Assembly: GCF_026247885.1 (NCBI RefSeq)
Contig: NZ_CP110921.1
Span: 1,426,001 to 1,490,000, forward strand
Direction of reading: 5' to 3'
Length of the DNA stretch: 64,000 bases
Source of the DNA: Methylococcus mesophilus
GTDB taxonomy: Bacteria > Pseudomonadota > Gammaproteobacteria > Methylococcales > Methylococcaceae
This document shows, in pieces, positions 13,784-24,974 of the stretch. Position 1 is the stretch's first letter. Each line of letters starts with the position of its first letter. The notes beneath the pieces were generated by a model that did no database searches, had not been told where the DNA came from, and saw only the letters and a program-made list of their open reading frames with translations. A program made the position numbers and the translations under genes.

Positions 13784-14523
13784 GGACTGTAGTTGTGGGC
13801 ATCCAGAATGCGGCCGTAGGTGCCGTCGTTCTTCATCGCCTTGAGAGTCCGGTTGAAATCGTCGACGATCCGCGCGTGATTGGGATTGGCGCGGCTGACG
13901 GCGATGTGGAGCTGCTCCAGGCCGACCGGCCGCGGCAGGAATTCGAGGCGGTTCTCGCTCTCGGGCAGGTATCTCTTCGCCGTGTATTCCAGCACGTGCT
14001 TGTCGTCGATCACCAGATCGCATTGGCCCTCCACCAGTTCGGTCAGCGCCTCGACCAGGGTGTCGTTGGCGATCTTCAGCACCCCGCCCGCACGGAGAAA
14101 TCCTGAAGGATAGCCGTAGTTCTTCACCATACCGATTCGCAGGCCCCGGATGTCGCCGTAATCCTCGAACTCGATGTCGGTCCATTTGCGCTTGACGAAG
14201 CGGACGTCGTTGACGAGGTAAGGATCGCTGTAGTCGAGATATTGGGCGCGTTCGTCGGTGTACCAGATGTTCGCGACCACGTCGTAGACGCCGATGCTCG
14301 CCCCTTCCAGGTCGCGCGACCAGTCGTCCACCGTGAGTTGCGTGGTGTAACCGGCGCGGGAAAACACGGCGGACACCAGATCGATGGCCAGACCGCCGCC
14401 CGTGGCGGTCGGGTCGACATAGGGCGGCCACTCGTCGGCCACCACGCGCAATTGCTCGGCCCTGGCGGCCAGGGCAAAGAACAACAGCATGGCAGCCAGA
14501 CTCAGCTTAGGCAGTTTGGACAT
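13780..14523 (-). CDS. Periplasmic solute-binding protein (SBP_bac_3 type)
   Basis: A 247-residue protein of the family-3 extracellular solute-binding proteins (amino-acid ABC transporters or signalling). The ATG at 14523 opens a clear signal peptide (LSLAAMLLFFALAARA, cleavage before EQLRVV). Family features include ADEWPPYVDPTATGGGLAIDL near the N-terminus, EDYGDIRGLRIGMVKNYGYP and GQCDLVIDDKHVLEY. No permease or ATPase genes are adjacent, so it may be an orphan receptor or serve a distant transporter. The ligand is unknown. Confidence 0.8.
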   Translation of the reverse strand: MSKLPKLSLAAMLLFFALAARAEQLRVVADEWPPYVDPTATGGGLAIDLVSAVFSRAGYTTQLTVDDWSRDLEGASIGVYDVVANIWYTDERAQYLDYSDPYLVNDVRFVKRKWTDIEFEDYGDIRGLRIGMVKNYGYPSGFLRAGGVLKIANDTLVEALTELVEGQCDLVIDDKHVLEYTAKRYLPESENRLEFLPRPVGLEQLHIAVSRANPNHARIVDDFNRTLKAMKNDGTYGRILDAHNYSP

Positions 14524-14854
14524 CTTGGGACCCCGTTCCTTGATGAAATTGGTCGATGGCAGCACGGTTGAAGGAAATGCGCAATGGCTGCGGTGGGAGA
14601 AAAATAGCACTCGCGCGGCCCACCGCGCTCGGTTCGGAAGTGTAGAGGGAGTAAGCGACGAAATCGAGACGCTGGAAATTTCGAACAAGTCCGGCTACGG
14701 GCTTTGCGCACAGATGGCTATACTTTGGACCGGCGCTGGAGTTATGCAATTTACGCGCTGCCGGGCGCCTGACTCAGGAGCCTACCCGGCCGGAACCGGA
14801 AACAACGCGCACGGGGACCCAAACCCTGTCGATAAATACGATAAAGAGGCTGCC
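14524..14854. other. Divergent intergenic region, no gene seen
   Basis: These 331 bases separate the minus-strand solute-binding protein gene from the plus-strand DUF1800 gene and must hold both promoters. A long frame from the DUF1800 gene stays open across it, but it has no ribosome-binding site and no family similarity. I see no RNA gene or repeat. Confidence 0.5.
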
Positions 14855-16603
14855 ATGACCCGCGCAAGAATCCCCGACATCGGGTTCCACGGATCCCGAA
14901 ATCCAGCATTGGAAAAAGTATCGAAACCCGTGCGCTGGTTGCCAGCCGCCGGAGCCGTCGTCTTGCTCGGCGCGACCGCTTTGGACACGCAGGGCGCCTC
15001 CGCGGCGGTCAACACCGCCGATGCGGTACGCTTCCTCGAACAAGGCAGCTTCGGGCCGACCGATGCCGCCATCGCGGAAGTGCAGAAACTCGGCTTCAGC
15101 GGCTGGCTGGACATGCAGCGCAACCTCCCGGCTTCGCGCTTTCCGGATCTGCCCGAGTTTCCTTCCAATCCCGCGGAAGGCTGCCCCAAGGACGATCCGT
15201 CAACTTCCCAGAACTGCTACCGGGACCATTACACCCAGTTTCCCCTGCAGATGCAGTTTTTCCTGCATGCCTTGGGCGGGACGGACCAACTACGCCAGCG
15301 GGTGGCTTTCGCATTGAGCCAGACGCTCGTGGTGTCCGGGGTCCAGATCCAGCAGCCCAGTGCCCTGGCGCCCTACCTCAACATCCTGGCGGACAACGCG
15401 TTCGGCAATTATCGCGACCTGCTGGAAAAAATCACGCTGAATCCCGCCATGGGCGATTACCTCGACATGGTGAACAACGACAAGCCGAGCAGCGACGGCA
15501 AGTTCAAACCCAACGAAAACTACGCCCGCGAAATCCTGCAGTTGTTTTCGATCGGCCTCTATCAGTTGAACACGGACGGCACCCTCAAGCTCGATTCGAA
15601 AGGCCAGTCCATCCCGACCTATACCCAAGACACCATCGGGAACTTCGCCCGCGTCTTCACCGGCTGGACCTATGCCCCCAAGGACGGCGCCACGCCCAAG
15701 AAGCACAACCCGCGCAACTATCTCGTTCCCATGGTGCTGTACCGGGTCAACGGCGCGGACACCAACCACGACAAGGGCGCGAAGCCACTGCTCAGCTATT
15801 CTGGCGCGGTGTATTCCACGTTGCCGGCCAACCAGGACGGGGAAACCGACCTCAAACAGGCGCTGGACAACATTTTCCGGCATCCCAACGTCGGGCCTTT
15901 CATCGCCAAGCGGCTGATCCAGAACCTGGTGACCAGCAACCCGAGCGCGGCTTACGTGGGACGGGTCGCCAGGGTATTCAATAACAACGGCTCCGGCGTC
16001 CGGGGGGATCTGTTCGCCACCGTCAGGGCGGTCCTGCTCGACAAGGAAGCGCGCGGCGCTTCGCGCCGGGAAGCGGGATATGGGCGGTTGCGAGAGCCGG
16101 TGCAATTCGTAACCAACCTGCTCCGCGCATACAACGCCCAGAGCGACGGTGTGCTGGCCGAACTCCCCAAGGCCATGGGCCAGAACCTGTTCTACTCGCC
16201 TTCCGTCTTCAACTATTACCCCCGTGAATACACCGTCCCCGGAACGGCGCTGCAAGGGCCGGAATTCGGCATCGAGTCCAGCGCCGCCGCGCTCAACCGC
16301 GCGAACGTCGCCTATCTCCTGATTCTTTCGAAACTGCAGCTTCCGGGGGCGACGACGCCGACCACGATCGATCTGAGCGGACTCGACGCCCTGGGCGCCA
16401 ATCCGGACGCCACCCAGCTCATCGAATCGATCAACCGGCTGCTGATGCACTCCTCGATGTCGAAGGACATGAAGACCACCGTCGGCGCCGCCCTGCCATG
16501 CACGCGCAAGGCCGGCCAGGGCAGCTGCACGGAAGCGCATCTGCGCGCGCAGATCGCCCTCTATCTCGTCGCGACCTCGTCGCAATATCTGATCCAGAGG
16601 TAA
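14855..16603 (+). CDS. DUF1800 family protein
   Basis: A 582-residue protein of the DUF1800 family, usually encoded next to a DUF1501 partner and of unknown biochemical role. The ATG at 14855 follows AAAGAGG. A hydrophobic segment ([16 protein letters not shown]) near residues 28-45 indicates export. Family features include [72 protein letters not shown] and [12 protein letters not shown]. It ends five bases before the DUF1501 gene, so the two form one operon. Confidence 0.88.
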
Positions 16604-16608
16604 CCGCC

Positions 16609-17964
16609 ATGATGTCACGCCGAAAATTTCTTAAGCAGTCGAGCCAGACACTGGGGGCAGCCGCCCTGCTTTCCAGCCTCGGCCGGATCGTCCCGGCCCA
16701 GGCCGCCGCGGGCGATTACAAGGCCCTGGTCTGCATCTTCCTGGCGGGCGGTAACGACAGCAACAACACCGTCATCCCCTACGACGACTATGCCGCGTAT
16801 CAGGCGGTCCGCGGCACCGGCGCGCTGCTGAACATCCCGCAGGCCCAACTGCTGCAGATCGCCGCGGCCAGCCACCAGGACAAGCTGTTCGGGCTGCATC
16901 CCAGCCTGCCGGAATTGCAGGCGCTCTATGCCTCCGGCAGACTCGCGGTCCTGGCCAACGTGGGCACGCTGGTCCGCCCGATAACAAAAACCGAGCTGCT
17001 GGGCAGCGGACCGCGCCCGGAAAACCTGTTCTCGCATTCGGACCAGCAGGCCCAGTGGCAGTCGGCCACGGCTTCGAGTTCCGGCCAGTCCATGCCCACC
17101 GGGTGGGGCGGGCGGCTGGCGGACGACATCGGGAGCGCCTACAACCCCGGCATCAGCTTTCCCATGGTCACCTCCCTTGCGGGAGTGACCCTGTTTTCCA
17201 CCGGCAAGACCACCAGCCCGATCGTTCCCGGTGCGACGCTCATCGGCCTCGACGGCAAGGACCCGGTGGCGACGGCGGCCTATAACGCCGTGCGCAAGCT
17301 CCAAGGGCTGGACCTGGGGATGACCTTGGTCAAGGCCAAGAGCGCCATCACTTCGTCGGCCATCGACAACAGCCGAACCCTGCAATCGGCGCTGAAAAAC
17401 GCACCGGCTCTGTCCACCCCCTTCCCCGGCACCAGCATAGGCGGCCAGCTCAAGACCGCGGCCAGCATCATCGCCGCGCGCGGCACGATCGGCCTCAGCC
17501 GGCAGATATTCTTCTGCACCCTGGGCGGCTTCGACACCCACGCCGGACAGCCGGGAACCCAGAGCAGCCTCCTCGCCCAGCTCAGCCAGGCCATGAAGGC
17601 GTTCTACGACGCCACCGCGGAACTCGGCGTGGAAGCCAACGTCACCACCTTCACCCTCTCGGACTTCAACCGCACCTTCCAGCCGAACTCCGGCCTCGGC
17701 ACCGACCACGCCTGGGGCAGCCATCATTTCATCCTGGGAGGCGCCGTGAACGGCGGTGATTTCTATGGCCGGTTCCCGGCGCTGCAACTGAAGGGGCCGG
17801 ACGACCTGACCGGCGAGGGTCGCTGGATACCCACCACTTCGGTGGACGAATACGGCGCGAAACTGGCGGAATGGTTCGGGGCCGCGGACCTCGCCGCGGC
17901 ATTTCCCAACCTCGGCAACTTCGACACAGGCCGCACCGATCTCGCCTTCATGAAGGCCGGCTGA
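16609..17964 (+). CDS. DUF1501 family protein, Tat-exported
   Basis: A 451-residue member of DUF1501, an alkaline-phosphatase-like (sulfatase-fold) family of unknown substrate. It begins with a twin-arginine signal ([20 protein letters not shown]). Characteristic segments are [34 protein letters not shown] and a C-terminal [17 protein letters not shown], which carry likely metal ligands (Asp and His). The ATG at 16609 is five bases after the DUF1800 stop. Both proteins are probably extracytoplasmic partners. Confidence 0.9.
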
Positions 17965-18022: not shown

Positions 18023-19195
18023 TCAATCGAACTTCAATTCCAGGACGGACACGTCGTCTTCGAACTCGGCACGGTCCTGGATGGCACGCATCGCCGCCAG
18101 CAGCTCCCGCGGCCCGCCGCCGGCCGAAGCGACCGACGCCAGCTGGTCCATGAACTCGCCGAAGGTGAACTCTTCCCCGCCGGGGCGCGTGACCTCGTAA
18201 ATCCCGTCGCTGAACAGATAAACCGCAGCGGCCGGCGGTAATCGGAATTCTGCTGTAGCAAAAACGGAATCGCTCATGACACCGATGGGCATGGCCTGCT
18301 GACGCAGCTCCGCGGGCGCGCTGCCGGCCGCGATGACGATCGCCGGGGGATGCCCCGCGCTGGCGTACCGCACCTTGCGGGTGGTCCGCTCGAACACCCC
18401 GTACCAGATGGTGAAATACAGCAGATTGTGCTCTTCCATGGCAAAGGCTTCGTTGAGCGCGCCGAGCACGGACGCCGGGTCCAGGAAATCCACCTCCGTG
18501 AAGGTGCGCCGGCTGACGGCCGCCATTGCCGATACCGAGAGCAGGGCCGGCCCCACGCCATGGCCGCAGACGTCCAGGAGGAAAAATGCGAAATGGCCGG
18601 GATCGACGTCGAAATAGCCGAAGGAATCCCCTCCCAGCGTGGTGGAAGGCACGAACTCCCAGGCGCTGCGGATGGGCCCCGCGAGTATCGGCGCCGGCAG
18701 TTGCGAGCGCACGTAGCTCGCCGCTTCGTGCAGTTCCGCCGCCAGCGCGCCGTAGGCCTCGTCGCGCTGCAACTGGGCGATGTAGGCATTGGAATGGTAG
18801 CGCAGGCGGGCGATCAGCTCGATGCGGTCGGGCAGCTTGACCAGGTAGTCGTTCGCCCCCCGTGCGAAGGCTTCCGCCTTCACCGTCGGCTCCTCCTTGC
18901 TCGACAGCACGATCAGCGGGATGTTGCGGGAAGCCGGATGTTCCCGGAACCGCACCACCAGATCGAGGCCGTCCACGTCCGGCATCACCAGATCCTGGAG
19001 GATGATCGTGGGCCTTACGCGCTCCGCTTCCGCCAGCGCCTGGGTCGGATCGCTCAGGAAATGGAACTCGATGTCGGTCTCGTCCTTCAGCAGGCGGCGG
19101 ACGGCTTCGCCGATGATCTTCTGGTCGTCGATCAGCAGCACGACGACGGGGTGGGCAACCGCGAGCACCCCGGCCACCCCTTTCTCTTCACTCAT
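18023..19195 (-). CDS. Response regulator with PP2C/SpoIIE-type phosphatase output
   Basis: A 390-residue last gene of the Wsp-type operon. Residues about 15-135 form a receiver closely resembling that of WspR: VVVLLIDDQKIIGEAVRRLL, PTIILQDLVMPDVDG (acceptor Asp present) and GANDYLVKLPDRIELIARLR. A short linker leads to a SpoIIE/RsbU-type serine phosphatase domain with GGDSFGYFDVD, FFLLDVCGHGVGPALL and a terminal EDDVSVLELKF carrying the metal-binding aspartates. So the output is protein dephosphorylation, not c-di-GMP synthesis as in WspR. It overlaps the upstream cheB-like gene by eight bases. No anti-sigma antagonist gene is seen in the window. Confidence 0.87.
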   Translation of the reverse strand: MSEEKGVAGVLAVAHPVVVLLIDDQKIIGEAVRRLLKDETDIEFHFLSDPTQALAEAERVRPTIILQDLVMPDVDGLDLVVRFREHPASRNIPLIVLSSKEEPTVKAEAFARGANDYLVKLPDRIELIARLRYHSNAYIAQLQRDEAYGALAAELHEAASYVRSQLPAPILAGPIRSAWEFVPSTTLGGDSFGYFDVDPGHFAFFLLDVCGHGVGPALLSVSAMAAVSRRTFTEVDFLDPASVLGALNEAFAMEEHNLLYFTIWYGVFERTTRKVRYASAGHPPAIVIAAGSAPAELRQQAMPIGVMSDSVFATAEFRLPPAAAVYLFSDGIYEVTRPGGEEFTFGEFMDQLASVASAGGGPRELLAAMRAIQDRAEFEDDVSVLELKFD

Positions 19196-20255
19196 CAGAA
19201 GCTCCCTGGGAAACTCGTCCCGGTTCGGATAACGAACGTATGTGCTCCACCACGGCGGGCGCGATCCGGTTCAGAGGCAGAACGGCGCTGGCCGCTTGCT
19301 CCCGGACCGCGGCCCCCGGCATGCCCCAGATGACGCTGGTGTTCTCGTCCTGTGCGATCGTCATCATGCCCGCCCGCCTTAAAGCCAGCAGGCCCGCTGC
19401 ACCGTCCCTGCCCATCCCGGTCAGCAGTACCCCGCAACCGGCCAGGCCAGGGACAACGGCGAGGCTTTCGAACAGCCGGTCCACCGACGGGCAGTGGTTG
19501 GCCTTGTCCTCGGCATCGGCGTAGTGGAGCCGCATCCGGCCATCCAGCACCATGTGCGCCTCGCGAGCGGCAAGGAATACCGTAGCAGGCCTGATCCGCT
19601 CCGGCCGCTCCAGCAGCCTGACTTCCAGCGGCGTCTGGCGCGACAGCCAGTGTGCCAAGTTGTCGGCAAAACGCGCATCCAGATGCTGCACCACCAGGAC
19701 GGCAGCGGGAAAATCGGCCGGAAGCCCGGCGAGAACGACGCCGAGCGCATGGGGACCGCCGGTCGAGGACCCGATTGCCACCACCGGCACCGCCCCGCCG
19801 TTCGACGGCCGAAGCGGCCGAGGCGCTGGCTTTCCCGCGGATGCCCCTTGGAGCGGCGCGGCCATCAGGGCACCCACCGTTGCTATCTTGCGCAACAGCT
19901 CGCCGGCACCGGCAATCTCCTTGCCATCACCCACCCTTCGGGGCGTCTCGACGGCATCCAGCGCACCAGCTGCAATCGCCTCGTAGACTCGGGTGAATGC
20001 ACCGGCGATCGTCGCCGTCACCACCAGGATGGGGCAAGGGGTCGTGCCCATGATACGGCGGGTGGCTTCGACGCCATCCATCGCCGGCAGATGCATCGCC
20101 ATCAGAATCAGATCCGGTCTGTCGGCGGCGCAGCGGGCCACGGCTTCCTTCCCGTCGAGGGCGGTCCAGCAGACCTCCAGGCCGGTCGCCGGCTCGACCA
20201 CGCAACGCAAGGTTTCGATCGCCTGAAGGTCGCCGTTTACGATCGCGATTCTCAA
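19188..20255 (-). CDS. CheB/WspF-like methylesterase with degenerate receiver
   Basis: A 355-residue chemosensory methylesterase that would demethylate a chemoreceptor. The C-terminal domain has its catalytic elements: VAIGSSTGGPHALG (Ser), VVQHLDARF (His) and LTGMGRDGAAGL (Asp). The N-terminal receiver is degenerate. The acceptor position reads DLILMAMHLPAMDG, with Ala53 (codon GCG) where the phospho-acceptor Asp is expected. The acidic pocket is also altered (IAIVNGDLQAIE). Control by phosphorylation is thus unlikely. It overlaps the cheA stop by four bases (ATGA). Confidence 0.9.
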   Translation of the reverse strand: MRIAIVNGDLQAIETLRCVVEPATGLEVCWTALDGKEAVARCAADRPDLILMAMHLPAMDGVEATRRIMGTTPCPILVVTATIAGAFTRVYEAIAAGALDAVETPRRVGDGKEIAGAGELLRKIATVGALMAAPLQGASAGKPAPRPLRPSNGGAVPVVAIGSSTGGPHALGVVLAGLPADFPAAVLVVQHLDARFADNLAHWLSRQTPLEVRLLERPERIRPATVFLAAREAHMVLDGRMRLHYADAEDKANHCPSVDRLFESLAVVPGLAGCGVLLTGMGRDGAAGLLALRRAGMMTIAQDENTSVIWGMPGAAVREQAASAVLPLNRIAPAVVEHIRSLSEPGRVSQGASDE

Positions 20256-22507
20256 ACGGCGGCCTCGCCGATCAGCTCCCGCACCGCCTGGATCAGCGTA
20301 TCGTCGCGGAATCCGCTCTTGGCGAGGTAGTAGTCCGCGCCCGCCTCCAGTCCAGCCATCCGATCCTCCTCCCTGTCCTTGTACGAAACGATCATGACGG
20401 GCAGCCGCTCGAAACGGGCATCGGCCCGTATACGCCGCACCAGCTCGATGCCGTTCATGCGCGGCATGTCGACGTCGCTCACCACCAGATCGTAGCGGCC
20501 CAGCCCCAGCGCATTCCAGCCCTCCATGCCGTCGACCGCCACGTCCACCTCGTAGCCGTGGTTTTCGAGCAGCCGCCGTTCCAGTTCGCGCACGGTGATG
20601 GAATCGTCCACCACCAGGATCCTGCGGACACGCTGGCGCTCGGGCGCCGCCCGGTTCCGCCGTCCGACCGCCAGCCCGCCCGACAGCATCGAGGCGATGG
20701 ACCGGAACAGGTCGTCCACGTCGAGAATCAGCACCGGCATCCCGTCCTCTCCGACCGAAACGGCGCTGACGTGCGGGACCTTGCCGAATCGCGTATCCAT
20801 GGGCCTGACCACCAGCTCGGATTCGCCGAGGAAGTCGTCGACCTCGATGGCGTAGGATTCCCCCTGGTTCATCAGAACTACCGCATGGATACGGTCCGCC
20901 GTCGTATCCGGAGCCCCCATGTCCAGCAGCCCTCGGGCGGCGACCAGGGCAATGTTCGCGCCGTCTGCTACGAAATAGCTTCGGCCTTCGACGGTCTTGA
21001 GTTCGGAAAGCCCCAGCGCCGCCAGGTAGCCGATGCGCGCCAGGGGAAAGGCATAGGGCTCGCCGCCGAGGCGGACCAGCAGGGTGCGGACCACCGAGCG
21101 CGTGACCGGAAGCTGGAGCCGGAATACCGTGCCGCGGCCAGCCTCCGACTCGACCGATACCGAGCCGCCTTCGGCATGGACCATGGATTGCACGACGTCC
21201 AGGCCCACGCCGCGGCCCGAAACCCGGCTGGTCATGTCACGCGTCGACAATCCCGGCAGAAACAGAAAGTCGAACAGCTCCGCGTCGGTCATGTGCGTCG
21301 CCAGCGCCGCGGTGGTCAGGTTGCGTTCGACGATCTTCCGCCGGAGCCGCTCGCGGTCCACGCCGCGACCGTCGTCGCTCACCGAGATCAGCAGCAGTCC
21401 GGCGCGATGACGCGCCTCCAACCGCAGGCTGCCGCTTTCCGGCTTCCCCGACGCCCGCCGCTGCTCCGGCTGCTCCAGGCCATGATCCAGCGCGTTCCGG
21501 AGCAGATGGCCGAGCGGCGCCTCCAGCTTGGCAAGGATGTCACGGTCAACCAGGGTGGCGCCGCCGCTGATCTCGAAATGGACCTGCTTGCCCAGCTCCC
21601 GCGCCAGATCGCGGACCTGGCGCGGAAACGAGCGCGTTCCCTCCTCGAAAGGACGCATCCGGCCGGCCACCACTTCCCTGAACTGGGATTCGGCAGTCAA
21701 CGCCGCACGGCGCGCGTGAGCATCCAACTCTTCGAGCGTCCTCGCCAGCCCGTTGCGTATTTCTTCCAGCAGCCGGAGTGCGCTCCCGCCCTGATCTTCT
21801 TTTTTCTGCAGCACGGCCGCCAGCCGGCCGAGGCCACGGCGAGTGGTCTCCAGCCCGGCGAGGGTGTCCTCCATGCGGTGCGCCTCCACCAGCGACTCGG
21901 AGGCCAAGCTGATGATCCGGTTGAGCACCTCGGCGCTGATTTTGACGGAGCGGTCAGACGCCCCGGCGGCCGGGGGCTCCGGTGCCGGCGCGGCGGGCGG
22001 CGCCACGGCTTCGGTTTCGGAAGGAGGCGGCGCGGCTGCGGCGACCGCCGCCGGGGCCTTGGCGGCGGTCGCGGCGGCTCCTGACCCGGCGGAGCCGCCG
22101 GCCATATCCGATTCCGCCTTCTCGATATCCCGCAAACGGCGCTCCAGATCGTCCGCCGCGTCCGCCTGCGCCACCAGCCAGGCCGGCAGGTCCGGCTCGT
22201 CCACCTGCGCCAGGGCGACGATCCAGTCGACGCCCTTGAGCAGCACGTCGACCCGCGCCGGAGTCAGCGCCAGCCTGCCTTCCTTGGCCGCCACCAAGCC
22301 GTCCTCCATGGCGTGAGCGATGCCGACCGCCGCGTCCAACCCCAAGACCCGCGCCGCCCCCTTGAGCGAATGGGCCGCACGCATGAGCGACTCGATCTGC
22401 GCGGGTCCGGCGGGTTCCGCTTCCAGCGCGATCAGGCCCGCGGTCAGGACGCCCGTATGGGTGTCGACTTCCTCCCGGAACAAGTCCAGCAGGGCGAAAT
22501 CGCTCAT
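20252..22507 (-). CDS. Hybrid chemosensory histidine kinase CheA/WspE-like
   Basis: A 751-residue kinase with an N-terminal HPt domain (AHSLKGAARVLGL, His near 47), an Ala/Pro-rich linker (about 150-200) and a dimerisation region. The HATPase domain follows (RNALDHGLEQPEQRR, SDDGRGVDRERLRR, GRGVGLDVVQSMVHAEGG). A CheW-like domain (about 470-600) and a C-terminal receiver with an intact acceptor (LVVDDSITVRELE, LVVSDVDMPRMNGIEL) complete it. This is the WspE domain order. Start and stop overlap both neighbours by four bases, so translation is coupled along the operon. Confidence 0.93.
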   Translation of the reverse strand: MSDFALLDLFREEVDTHTGVLTAGLIALEAEPAGPAQIESLMRAAHSLKGAARVLGLDAAVGIAHAMEDGLVAAKEGRLALTPARVDVLLKGVDWIVALAQVDEPDLPAWLVAQADAADDLERRLRDIEKAESDMAGGSAGSGAAATAAKAPAAVAAAAPPPSETEAVAPPAAPAPEPPAAGASDRSVKISAEVLNRIISLASESLVEAHRMEDTLAGLETTRRGLGRLAAVLQKKEDQGGSALRLLEEIRNGLARTLEELDAHARRAALTAESQFREVVAGRMRPFEEGTRSFPRQVRDLARELGKQVHFEISGGATLVDRDILAKLEAPLGHLLRNALDHGLEQPEQRRASGKPESGSLRLEARHRAGLLLISVSDDGRGVDRERLRRKIVERNLTTAALATHMTDAELFDFLFLPGLSTRDMTSRVSGRGVGLDVVQSMVHAEGGSVSVESEAGRGTVFRLQLPVTRSVVRTLLVRLGGEPYAFPLARIGYLAALGLSELKTVEGRSYFVADGANIALVAARGLLDMGAPDTTADRIHAVVLMNQGESYAIEVDDFLGESELVVRPMDTRFGKVPHVSAVSVGEDGMPVLILDVDDLFRSIASMLSGGLAVGRRNRAAPERQRVRRILVVDDSITVRELERRLLENHGYEVDVAVDGMEGWNALGLGRYDLVVSDVDMPRMNGIELVRRIRADARFERLPVMIVSYKDREEDRMAGLEAGADYYLAKSGFRDDTLIQAVRELIGEAAV

Positions 22508-23157
22508 CGCAACAGGGCCTCCAGCGCCCCGAACAGGCGTTCGGCGTCCAGCACCGCTATGCTGCCCACATGATGCCTCACCAGCCAGCGGGTATATGCG
22601 TCCGCGGCCCGGCCGACCGTCGCCGGCGGCCTGCTTTCCTCACCCAGGATCAGACGTCTCGCGCCCAGGATGGCTCCGACCGGAAACACCAGCCGGCGTC
22701 CCTCCCCGCCGCAGACCAGAACCAGTTCACTCGTGGAATCGGCTTCGGTTTCGATGCCCAGGACGGCAGCGAGGGAAAAATATGGCATCAGGTCGCCGCG
22801 CACGCTCATGATTCCCAGGAACTCCTTACCGCTGCGGTGCGGAACGCTCCGCCAGGGGCCCGGCGCGACGCCTTCCCGCACCCGCTCCGCCGGCAGGGCG
22901 AACCACTCCGCCCCCAGCCGGAAGACTACCAGCGACGTCCGCTCCGCCGCGTCCGCGTCCGGAACGGCCGAGAGTTGTTCGGTCCAGCGGTCGATGCTGT
23001 CCTCGGCAGGCAGCCGGTCGAACAACGCACGGCCCGCGGTCTGATAAACGCCGCAGCTGCGGCAATGGATCACCTCGGCGAGCCGGGAGCACTCGCGGCT
23101 CCCGTAGATGCCTGTTTGGTTCCAGCAGCTTCCCTCCGGGATTCCCGCTTCCTTCAT
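22504..23157 (-). CDS. CheW-like adaptor with N-terminal cysteine motif (WspD-like)
   Basis: A 217-residue coupling protein linking receptor and kinase. The first 50 residues hold a Cys-rich segment typical of WspD-type proteins: SCWNQTGIYGSRECSRL followed by VIHCRSCGVYQTAGRALFDR, with cysteines in CxxC spacing. The CheW fold follows (LVVFRLGAEWFALPAERVRE, FLGIMSVRGDLMPYFSLAAV). Whether the cysteines bind metal or sense redox is not known to me. Four-base overlaps with both neighbours indicate tight coupling. Confidence 0.85.
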   Translation of the reverse strand: MKEAGIPEGSCWNQTGIYGSRECSRLAEVIHCRSCGVYQTAGRALFDRLPAEDSIDRWTEQLSAVPDADAAERTSLVVFRLGAEWFALPAERVREGVAPGPWRSVPHRSGKEFLGIMSVRGDLMPYFSLAAVLGIETEADSTSELVLVCGGEGRRLVFPVGAILGARRLILGEESRPPATVGRAADAYTRWLVRHHVGSIAVLDAERLFGALEALLR

Positions 23158-24410
23158 TGCCCACCCTCGCCGGCGGCGGAGCGGTTGCGAAGCTGGCGGG
23201 CGCGCTCGCCATCTCCGCGCCGCTCGTGCAGGGCGGCCATGTGCAGCAGGCTTTCGCCGTGTGAAGGGGCCAGATAAAGCGCCTGGCGGAAATATCTCAG
23301 CGCTTCGTCGTCCCGGTTGGCCGCAGACATGACGATCCCAAGCAAGGCGTGGACCTCCGGATCATGCGGGTGCGAAGCCAGATAGCCGAGACAGAGGCGT
23401 TCCGCACCCGCGTAGTCCCCACTGTCCGCCAGGGCGCGCGCGGTGCTGATCGCTGCGCCGTCGTCGAACGGCACGGCACGCGCGGCTTCCTTGGCACCAG
23501 AGAGCGAATCCGGCCTCGAAGGCCTCGCGCCCCCCGGCGCATCGCGCCTGACCGCCTTGGCGGCCACCGGCCGGGATGGACGAGCGGGAGGGGGCTCCGC
23601 TTCGGCCGCGTCCTGCCGTATCCAGGAGAATGCTCCGGCCGCGCCGTGCCGCCGGAACCCCCGGTCGATCCCGCCGATGCCGTCGGCGTGCCCCAGAACC
23701 AGCAGCCCGCCCGGATCGAGCGCCTCATGGCAGCGTGCAATGACCCGCTCCCTGAGATCGGCCTTCAGATAGATGAGGACGTTGCGGCAAAACACGGCAT
23801 GGTAGCGACGGCCGCCGTCACCCCAGCCCGGGTCGCCCAGATGAGCGACCCGGAACTCGACACCGCCCCGAAGCCCATCCTTCACACGGTAGCGGCCCTG
23901 ACCGATCTCATCGAAGTAGCGGCCCCGCCAGGTACCGTCCCCAGGACTCCGGAACGAGCGTCCGCCGTAGATTCCCGCACTGGCCCCCTCGATGGCTCTC
24001 GCACTGATATCCAGGGCTTCGACCTGGAAGTCCCCCTGTTCCAACCCAGCCTCCCGCAGCGCGATGACGATGGACCAGGGCTCCTCCCCCGTCGAACAGC
24101 CCAGGCTTAGCGCCCGAAACGGCCCAGTCCGCCGCTCCAGCCGATGCCGGACGGAAAATTCGGTCAGCAGTTCGAAAGCCGGCGGCTCCCGGAAAAACCA
24201 GGTTTCGGGCACCAAGACTGCCTCCAGCAGACGCGCCTGCTCCTCGGTATCCGCCGCCAACCTCGCCGGATAGGCCGCGGCGCAGCAGCCGGCGGCGGCG
24301 AGCCGCCGCTTCAAGGCGCATTCGACGGCAGCCTCGCCCAGGGCGTGCGGCTCGAGCCCGGCGGTCGCCAGCCAGTCCCACAGCCAGTCGATGTCGCCAT
24401 TCAGCCGCAC
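23154..24410 (-). CDS. CheR methyltransferase with C-terminal TPR (WspC-like)
   Basis: An SAM-dependent methyltransferase for chemoreceptor glutamates, 418 residues. The CheR domain covers about 1-275: VPETWFFREPPAFELL, LSLGCSTGEEPWSIVIALRE (SAM site), FQVEALDISARAIEGA, YHAVFCRNVLIYL. A Pro/Ala-rich linker leads to TPR-like repeats (GDYAGAERLCLGYLASHPHD, NRDDEALRYFRQALYLAPSH), the WspC layout. The frame is open to 24515, but GTG at 24410 is preceded by GAGGTGG and yields the expected beginning. It overlaps the upstream cheW stop by ten bases. Confidence 0.88.
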   Translation of the reverse strand: MRLNGDIDWLWDWLATAGLEPHALGEAAVECALKRRLAAAGCCAAAYPARLAADTEEQARLLEAVLVPETWFFREPPAFELLTEFSVRHRLERRTGPFRALSLGCSTGEEPWSIVIALREAGLEQGDFQVEALDISARAIEGASAGIYGGRSFRSPGDGTWRGRYFDEIGQGRYRVKDGLRGGVEFRVAHLGDPGWGDGGRRYHAVFCRNVLIYLKADLRERVIARCHEALDPGGLLVLGHADGIGGIDRGFRRHGAAGAFSWIRQDAAEAEPPPARPSRPVAAKAVRRDAPGGARPSRPDSLSGAKEAARAVPFDDGAAISTARALADSGDYAGAERLCLGYLASHPHDPEVHALLGIVMSAANRDDEALRYFRQALYLAPSHGESLLHMAALHERRGDGERARQLRNRSAAGEGGQ

Positions 24411-24862
24411 CGGTCCACCTCGGCGCACAAACGGGTCAGTTCCTCCGTTGCCAGAGGTTGCCAGCGGATGATCTGCAGCAGAACCCGGTCCAGGCCGGCC
24501 ACCGCGCCCAGCCACTCGGCGCCCGGAATGCTGACGCCGGTCTCGCGAAGCGCGTCCCGATCGACTGTCTCGGTACCGGTCACCCGCTCGGCCAGCAGTC
24601 CCAGGCCAGGCACGGCGCCCAGGTCTTTGGCATTTCCGACCAGAAGCAGACGCGTACTGAGGAGGCTGCGGGAGGGCTGACCCGCGATCAGCAGGCTCAG
24701 ATCGACAGCCGGCAACACCGCGCCACGATAACGGAACACGCCTGCCACCCAGGCCGGCGCCTGCGGCAGCGGACGCAGTCTGGGAACCTGGGTCACCGTA
24801 AAGACATCTGCAGCGGGCAGTGCATAATGCTCACCGCCGATCTGGAAGGGTACGAGCAACAT
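24401..24862 (-). CDS. CheW-like adaptor (WspB-like), first gene of the chemosensory operon
   Basis: A 153-residue CheW-domain protein: MLLVPFQIGGEHYALPAADV, then PAWVAGVFRYRGAVLPAVDL. It should couple a chemoreceptor to the CheA kinase. The ATG at 24862 is preferred over 24886 because the family begins near it. It is the promoter-proximal gene of the minus-strand operon. In other Wsp operons the receptor gene wspA precedes wspB, but here a divergent yfbR gene starts 112 bases away, so no receptor gene is linked. Confidence 0.85.
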   Translation of the reverse strand: MLLVPFQIGGEHYALPAADVFTVTQVPRLRPLPQAPAWVAGVFRYRGAVLPAVDLSLLIAGQPSRSLLSTRLLLVGNAKDLGAVPGLGLLAERVTGTETVDRDALRETGVSIPGAEWLGAVAGLDRVLLQIIRWQPLATEELTRLCAEVDRCG

Positions 24863-24974
24863 AGTCCGACGATCATACCGGCCCACGCATTTTTCTGCAT
24901 GCCGCGATCTCCCGCCAGACCGGCGTTCTTACGCCATCAGACCTGCATCAAGACTGCGTGTGATCAGCAATCCC

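Follow-up and report, generated by a model that had tools for sequence, protein, structure and literature searches.

A Wsp-type chemosensory operon of Methylococcus mesophilus with a predicted SpoIIE/RsbU-type phosphatase as its output

The Wsp operon has the order CheW–CheR–CheW–CheA–CheB–response regulator, and its response regulator, WspR, carries a GGDEF domain and makes c-di-GMP. The present study suggests that this chemosensory core serves a different output in Methylococcus mesophilus. Specifically, a minus-strand operon at positions 18023–24886 of the window (the whole stretch of 64,000 nucleotides that was analyzed) consists of six overlapping ORFs whose domain content, assigned by Pfam, reads CheW, CheR-TPR, CheW, CheA-REC, CheB, REC-PP2C, which is the wspB-C-D-E-F-R order with wspA missing. 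The output domain is, by its sequence, a SpoIIE/RsbU-type phosphatase with predicted activity. Combined with the arrangement of genes in related genomes, this leads us to a model that we consider fairly probable as a whole, in which a periplasmic ligand would act through a receptor and CheA on the REC-PP2C protein, whose dephosphorylation of a STAS protein would operate a partner switch. The six genes are:

24401–24886, minus strand: CheW, WspB-like (Pfam CheW 1.3e-19; alternative start ATG 24862)
23154–24515, minus strand: CheR methyltransferase with C-terminal TPR, WspC-like (Pfam CheR 1.2e-33, TPR models)
22504–23157, minus strand: second CheW, WspD-like (Pfam CheW 2.4e-17)
20252–22507, minus strand: CheA with C-terminal receiver, WspE-like (Pfam Hpt, HATPase_c, CheW and Response_reg; motif positions)
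19188–20255, minus strand: CheB, WspF-like (Pfam CheB 2.7e-56 and REC; alignment of 91 CheB)
18023–19195, minus strand: REC-PP2C output protein (Pfam, PDB sequence matches, alignments, predicted structure, fold match)

The original prediction had recognized six overlapping minus-strand genes in the wspB-C-D-E-F order plus a last gene, and both the ORFs and their Pfam domains agree with it. It had placed the upstream end at 24862, which is an ATG within the first CheW gene, the longest frame of which begins at 24886. The later junctions of the operon overlap by 4, 4, 4, and 8 nt. In its longest frame the CheR gene shares 115 nt with the first CheW gene, and its true start is probably a later GTG near 24410. 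CheA has the Hpt phosphorylation His, the N-box, G1, G2, and the receiver Asp. In CheB the catalytic Ser-His-Asp is intact and the receiver has Ala53 instead of the acceptor Asp, and because of this replacement adaptation may be weak in this system. The acceptor position is Asp in 68 of the 91 aligned CheB proteins, Gly or Ala in 20, Glu in 1, and a gap in 2; the 20 with Gly or Ala belong to the Methylococcaceae, two cyanobacterial loci (L152 and L153), and two loci from Acidobacteria (L099 and L104). Pfam found no receptor (wspA/MCP) gene within the operon or the 64-kb window. Convergent with the operon is a DUF1800 and DUF1501 gene pair (14489–17964 of the window); checking at 29–34 kb of the window did not bear out a suspected duplication.

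The 390-aa output protein comprises a receiver (REC, 8.5e-20) and a SpoIIE domain (1.7e-36, residues 199–389) alone, Pfam finding no kinase/anti-sigma domain of the CrsR/HsbR type. Among 177,635 distinct PDB sequences, the receiver (residues 16–153) best matches 3bre (1.4e-55), P. aeruginosa PA3702, which we take to be WspR, followed by 3i5a (5.9e-52); the best match after those two stands at 9.1e-33. The top full-length match is the REC-PP2C protein RssB of P. aeruginosa (3eq2, 9.1e-33). The acceptor Asp of the receiver, D68, and the aspartates D190, D208 (DxxGHG), D330 (SDG), and D380/D381, which presumably bind metal as their counterparts in SpoIIE/RsbU do, are invariant in all 22 sequences of the family and all 38 of a wider set, the protein of the window being counted in both alignments. 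The predicted structure (mean pLDDT 92.5, pTM 0.75) has a long helix, at about residues 124–165, that joins the two domains. Its top Foldseek matches are RssB 3f7a (4.0e-27) and 3eq2; WspR 3bre ranks lower, as do PP2C domains from SiaA, SpoIIE, and the RsbU part of Rv1364c. Collectively, Pfam, the invariant aspartates, and the fold match rule out a C-terminal domain that is non-PP2C or inactive by sequence. The original prediction, of a WspR-like receiver fused to a SpoIIE/RsbU-type domain rather than GGDEF, is thus borne out, and neither of the observations that it named as able to overturn it, a profile placing the domain outside PP2C/SpoIIE or a loss of the metal-binding aspartates, was made.

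The genome that carries the window is a single contig of 4.34 Mb. All three of its CheW matches lie within the operon, a second CheW set being absent; its two MCP matches both lie about 0.95–0.97 Mb from the operon, and flagellin has no match in the genome. The operon is, as judged from this inventory, the signaling core of the sole chemosensory system found in this genome. A receptor half is located at 465–478 kb, 0.97 Mb from the operon, where genes for an MCP, a Peripla_BP_5 protein, a STAS protein, an NCS2-type permease, and then a carbonic anhydrase run in one direction and an RsbW-like kinase gene is divergent. The MCP contains HAMP, and its dCache match is weak (0.00019, below the Pfam cut-off). 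The genome has one UrtA match, this binding protein, which scores 448 bits, below the cut-off of 492.75, and is similar to 8tg1 and to urea-binding proteins. Among the matches listed, the signaling domains of both MCPs are closer to receptors of Wsp-type operons than to other receptors; for the first MCP the values are 2.6e-47 to 1.5e-124 vs 2.9e-23 and weaker (best 70 of 86 matches), and for the second the comparison covers the best 70 of 85. Ser56 of the STAS protein (475 kb), which we assume from SpoIIAA-type proteins to be the phosphosite, is invariant in 13 of 13 sequences. The kinase (478 kb) has RsbW as its nearest PDB match (2.1e-16), and its ATP-binding residues E54, N58, D89, G115, and G117 are invariant in 15 of 15.

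The permease of this module has a C-terminal extension (L007:10322–10849) that resembles a degenerate RsbW-type kinase domain without the N-box Asn. In a profile–profile comparison this domain and the kinase are collinear over 130 columns (66.6%, E 5.4e-5), the controls giving 0.8% and 0.1%. The resemblance is supported only by this comparison with the kinase: the domain profile matched nothing among PDB sequences at E <= 1, and Pfam gave HATPase_c_2 at 0.078 in one homologue and nothing in another. Elsewhere in the same genome, at 371.4–373.0 kb, a second REC-PP2C gene, with a more distant receiver, adjoins another RsbW-like kinase gene.

The operon and the module are unlinked in all six Methylococcus genomes searched, so that their pairing is drawn from relatives. 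In these six genomes the kinase, STAS, and receptor genes are clustered, at most about 6 kb apart, and the module stands away from the operon, in five by position and in one (G093) only by a separate contig. The survey covered 151 genomes of the order. At E <= 1e-30, 36 of them have REC-PP2C matches; the stricter threshold of E <= 1e-100 leaves 22, which divide into 16 outside and 6 within g5, a genus with dual outputs. The sensor domain of the receptor (E <= 1e-60) occurs in 14 of the 16 REC-PP2C genomes outside g5 vs 1 of 135 others, that one (G107) being 83% complete. The two exceptions are G075, whose contig ends before the expected place, and G058, which lacks the sensor domain. In G058 the STAS and kinase genes are far off and two other receptors adjoin the operon, in which no CheR or CheB was recognized and REC-PP2C directly follows CheA. 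In eight genomes outside Methylococcus (G067, G011, G064, G029, G099, G083, G075, and G105), no more than about 11 kb separates the STAS gene from REC-PP2C; at the same distance the receptor is found in seven of these (not G075) and the RsbW-like kinase in seven (not G067). The partner-switch connection of the original prediction is supported by this proximity in relatives, the genes being apart in Methylococcus. At another locus (L207) a binding protein of this type is encoded next to a probable hybrid kinase, a protein that combines the receptor's sensor with a weak CheA-like match and a receiver.

We propose that the UrtA-like binding protein presents a small ligand in the periplasm to the Wsp-class chemoreceptor with its dCache-like sensor, and that the receptor and the two CheW proteins would control CheA. 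CheA would then phosphorylate the REC-PP2C receiver at D68, which would raise or lower the activity of the phosphatase towards the STAS protein, while the RsbW-like kinase would rephosphorylate the latter. Whether the STAS protein is phosphorylated would decide its binding partner and thereby control a downstream target, which may be a sigma factor or the permease of the module. What we infer in this scheme is which ligand is sensed, that phosphotransfer occurs, that the STAS protein is the substrate, and in which direction and on what target control acts. Since the only chemotaxis-like system ends in a phosphatase and no flagellin gene was found, it probably works through a protein-binding on/off switch and not through swimming or c-di-GMP. 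A more far-reaching conjecture, which we regard as doubtful, starts from the resemblance of the permease extension to a degenerate RsbW-type kinase: after REC-PP2C has dephosphorylated it, the STAS protein could bind the permease directly, so that the receptor array would control solute uptake. On a broader scale, and just as doubtful, the phosphatase output may be a major, ancient branch of the Wsp-type systems, c-di-GMP being one output among several (GGDEF, PP2C, and adenylate/guanylate cyclase).

Three other explanations have to be weighed against this model. REC-PP2C might act on another STAS/kinase pair (at 511 kb or in the 371–382 kb group), or its substrate might be a phosphoprotein other than STAS; the linked module would then be a receptor module and no more. 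The operon is unlinked to any STAS or kinase gene in Methylococcus, and the genome, which the original prediction had suggested searching for STAS antagonists and anti-sigma kinases, does contain further candidates (6 STAS matches in all and 16 to HATPase_c_2); these, with the second REC-PP2C beside a kinase, make cross-talk or another substrate possible. We nevertheless think this explanation unlikely, for a family homologue of the 475-kb STAS protein is encoded near REC-PP2C in the eight genomes and the best-matching kinase in seven. The Wsp system of Pseudomonas senses surfaces, and the gene order, the WspR-type receiver, and the Wsp-class receptors would fit a strict surface-sensing system with a phosphatase in place of the c-di-GMP output, as the suggestion of surface or contact sensing in the original prediction implied. 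That suggestion fares poorly: because the linked receptor of the relatives is dCache-like and encoded beside a UrtA-like binding protein, a soluble ligand fits better, and we give surface sensing only a slim chance. Least probable of all, and to our minds scarcely credible, is ordinary chemotaxis or control of gliding by the sole Che system; CheA, CheW, CheR, CheB, and MCPs are all present, but flagellin has no match, the output gene encodes a phosphatase, and M. capsulatus Bath, which has one CheA and very few MCPs, is described in the relevant passages of PMC6956133 as non-motile. The main text of the M. capsulatus genome paper (PMC517821) mentions neither chemotaxis, flagella, and motility nor carbonic anhydrase.

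The original prediction also held that this cluster had swapped its output. The PP2C domain does stand in place of GGDEF on a Wsp core, but the claim was too local: an exchange unique to this genome is ruled out by the occurrence of REC-PP2C with a Wsp core across many phyla. A scan of genome contigs gave at least 532 REC-PP2C relatives, of which the best 80 by similarity to REC-PP2C were kept. The 76 loci (L079–L154) drawn from this best-scoring part all have REC-PP2C, and 48 also encode a Wsp-type CheA (E < 1e-100), so the search for WspR-like receivers fused to PP2C that had been proposed found them in number; because the loci were ranked by similarity to REC-PP2C, the sample favors phosphatase output. 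The other 28 have no Wsp-type CheA, many of the contigs being short, and three of the 76 (L079, L086, and L090) are also in the survey of the order. The collinear order CheW-CheR-CheW-CheA-CheB-REC-PP2C is found in 25 of the 76; these are assigned to nine phyla, with four loci unassigned, which we count as at least eight since "Myxococcota" is doubtful for two "Deltaproteobacteria" loci. REC-GGDEF loci have the same order with GGDEF last (MWRWABG in L158 and L189–L191 vs WRWABP in the window). They were collected with a WspR-query phylum search, whose 266 matching genomes out of 398 (E <= 1e-35) are not used as a count because other GGDEF proteins match too. A STAS or kinase gene lies within the locus in 16 of 82 PP2C-only loci (ten Methylococcaceae loci and the window included) and in 5 of 7 dual loci; among 26 GGDEF loci there is one such case, in which a protein of 405 aa matches weakly (1.7e-5). 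Neither gene is seen in the stretch covered for 66 of the 82, among them the window, and many stretches end early. Adenylate/guanylate cyclase domains are a further fusion partner of WspR-type receivers (L098:8350–9810, L156:9983–11464, and L157:9917–11470), in L098 and L157 beside a Wsp-type CheA.

Five g5 genomes (Ca. Methylumidiphilus, L069–L073) have a cluster that combines two receptors and a Wsp core with REC-GGDEF and, in divergent orientation, REC-PP2C, apparently one array with two outputs, and in four of the five a STAS gene lies beside REC-PP2C. We dropped the idea that these clusters are the ancestor of the Methylococcus cluster, because g5 CheA groups apart from other Methylococcaceae CheA in a quick tree. 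This tree comprised 76 of 82 rows, duplicates (L086 and L090) and divergent sequences (L088, L119, L141, and L144) having been dropped; it requires five label changes for PP2C (two forced by starred branches), two for GGDEF (one forced), and two for PP2C vs GGDEF alone, with 20 of 73 inner branches open. The tree built from REC (129 of 133 rows, the duplicates L086 and L090 again dropped) had too few columns. Outputs are strongly clustered in both trees, and neither settles the direction of the exchange or the ancestral output.

The system shares with Pseudomonas Wsp its gene order, a WspR-type receiver (3bre, 1.4e-55), and Wsp-class receptors, and differs in having PP2C for GGDEF, an operon without a receptor gene, a receptor linked to a binding protein, and a CheB receiver without the acceptor Asp. 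RssB of P. aeruginosa (3eq2, 3f7a), which has the same REC-PP2C domain order, is the best full-length PDB match in sequence and fold; however, the RssB score is 112 bits vs an NCBIfam cut-off of 700, and the receiver of the output protein is closer to that of WspR than to that of RssB. By analogy, the nearest functional precedent is the Shewanella oneidensis Che1 locus, a chemosensory cluster in which a partner-switch regulator, CrsR, and an anti-sigma antagonist, CrsA, are also encoded; for RpoS regulation, the passages of PMC9855816 on this locus state that Che1 "could be involved", and they place it in another chemosensory class, as an F7-class array. P. aeruginosa HsbR resembles the proposed control of STAS dephosphorylation by receiver phosphorylation, since its phosphorylated form drives dephosphorylation of the STAS protein HsbA, but according to the relevant part of PMC6482189 it is fed by HptB and hybrid kinases rather than by a receptor-CheW-CheA core. 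Unlike CrsR and HsbR, the REC-PP2C protein has no third, kinase/anti-sigma domain. A Wsp-type operon with PP2C output is undescribed in the open-access literature searched; prior mention is possible in subscription papers or in the Wuichet and Zhulin classification, which lay outside that scope.

The logic of a phosphatase output thus has a precedent in Shewanella Che1-CrsR-CrsA, and the Wsp-type variant is broadly distributed. If our model is true, the Wsp core would be a general signal processor whose output has been exchanged while its receiver and kinase were kept, and systems annotated "Wsp" could not safely be assumed to make c-di-GMP. The UrtA-like binding protein offers a concrete candidate route for the ligand. 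Furthermore, since flagellin has no match in this genome, chemosensory signaling could be studied here apart from chemotaxis.
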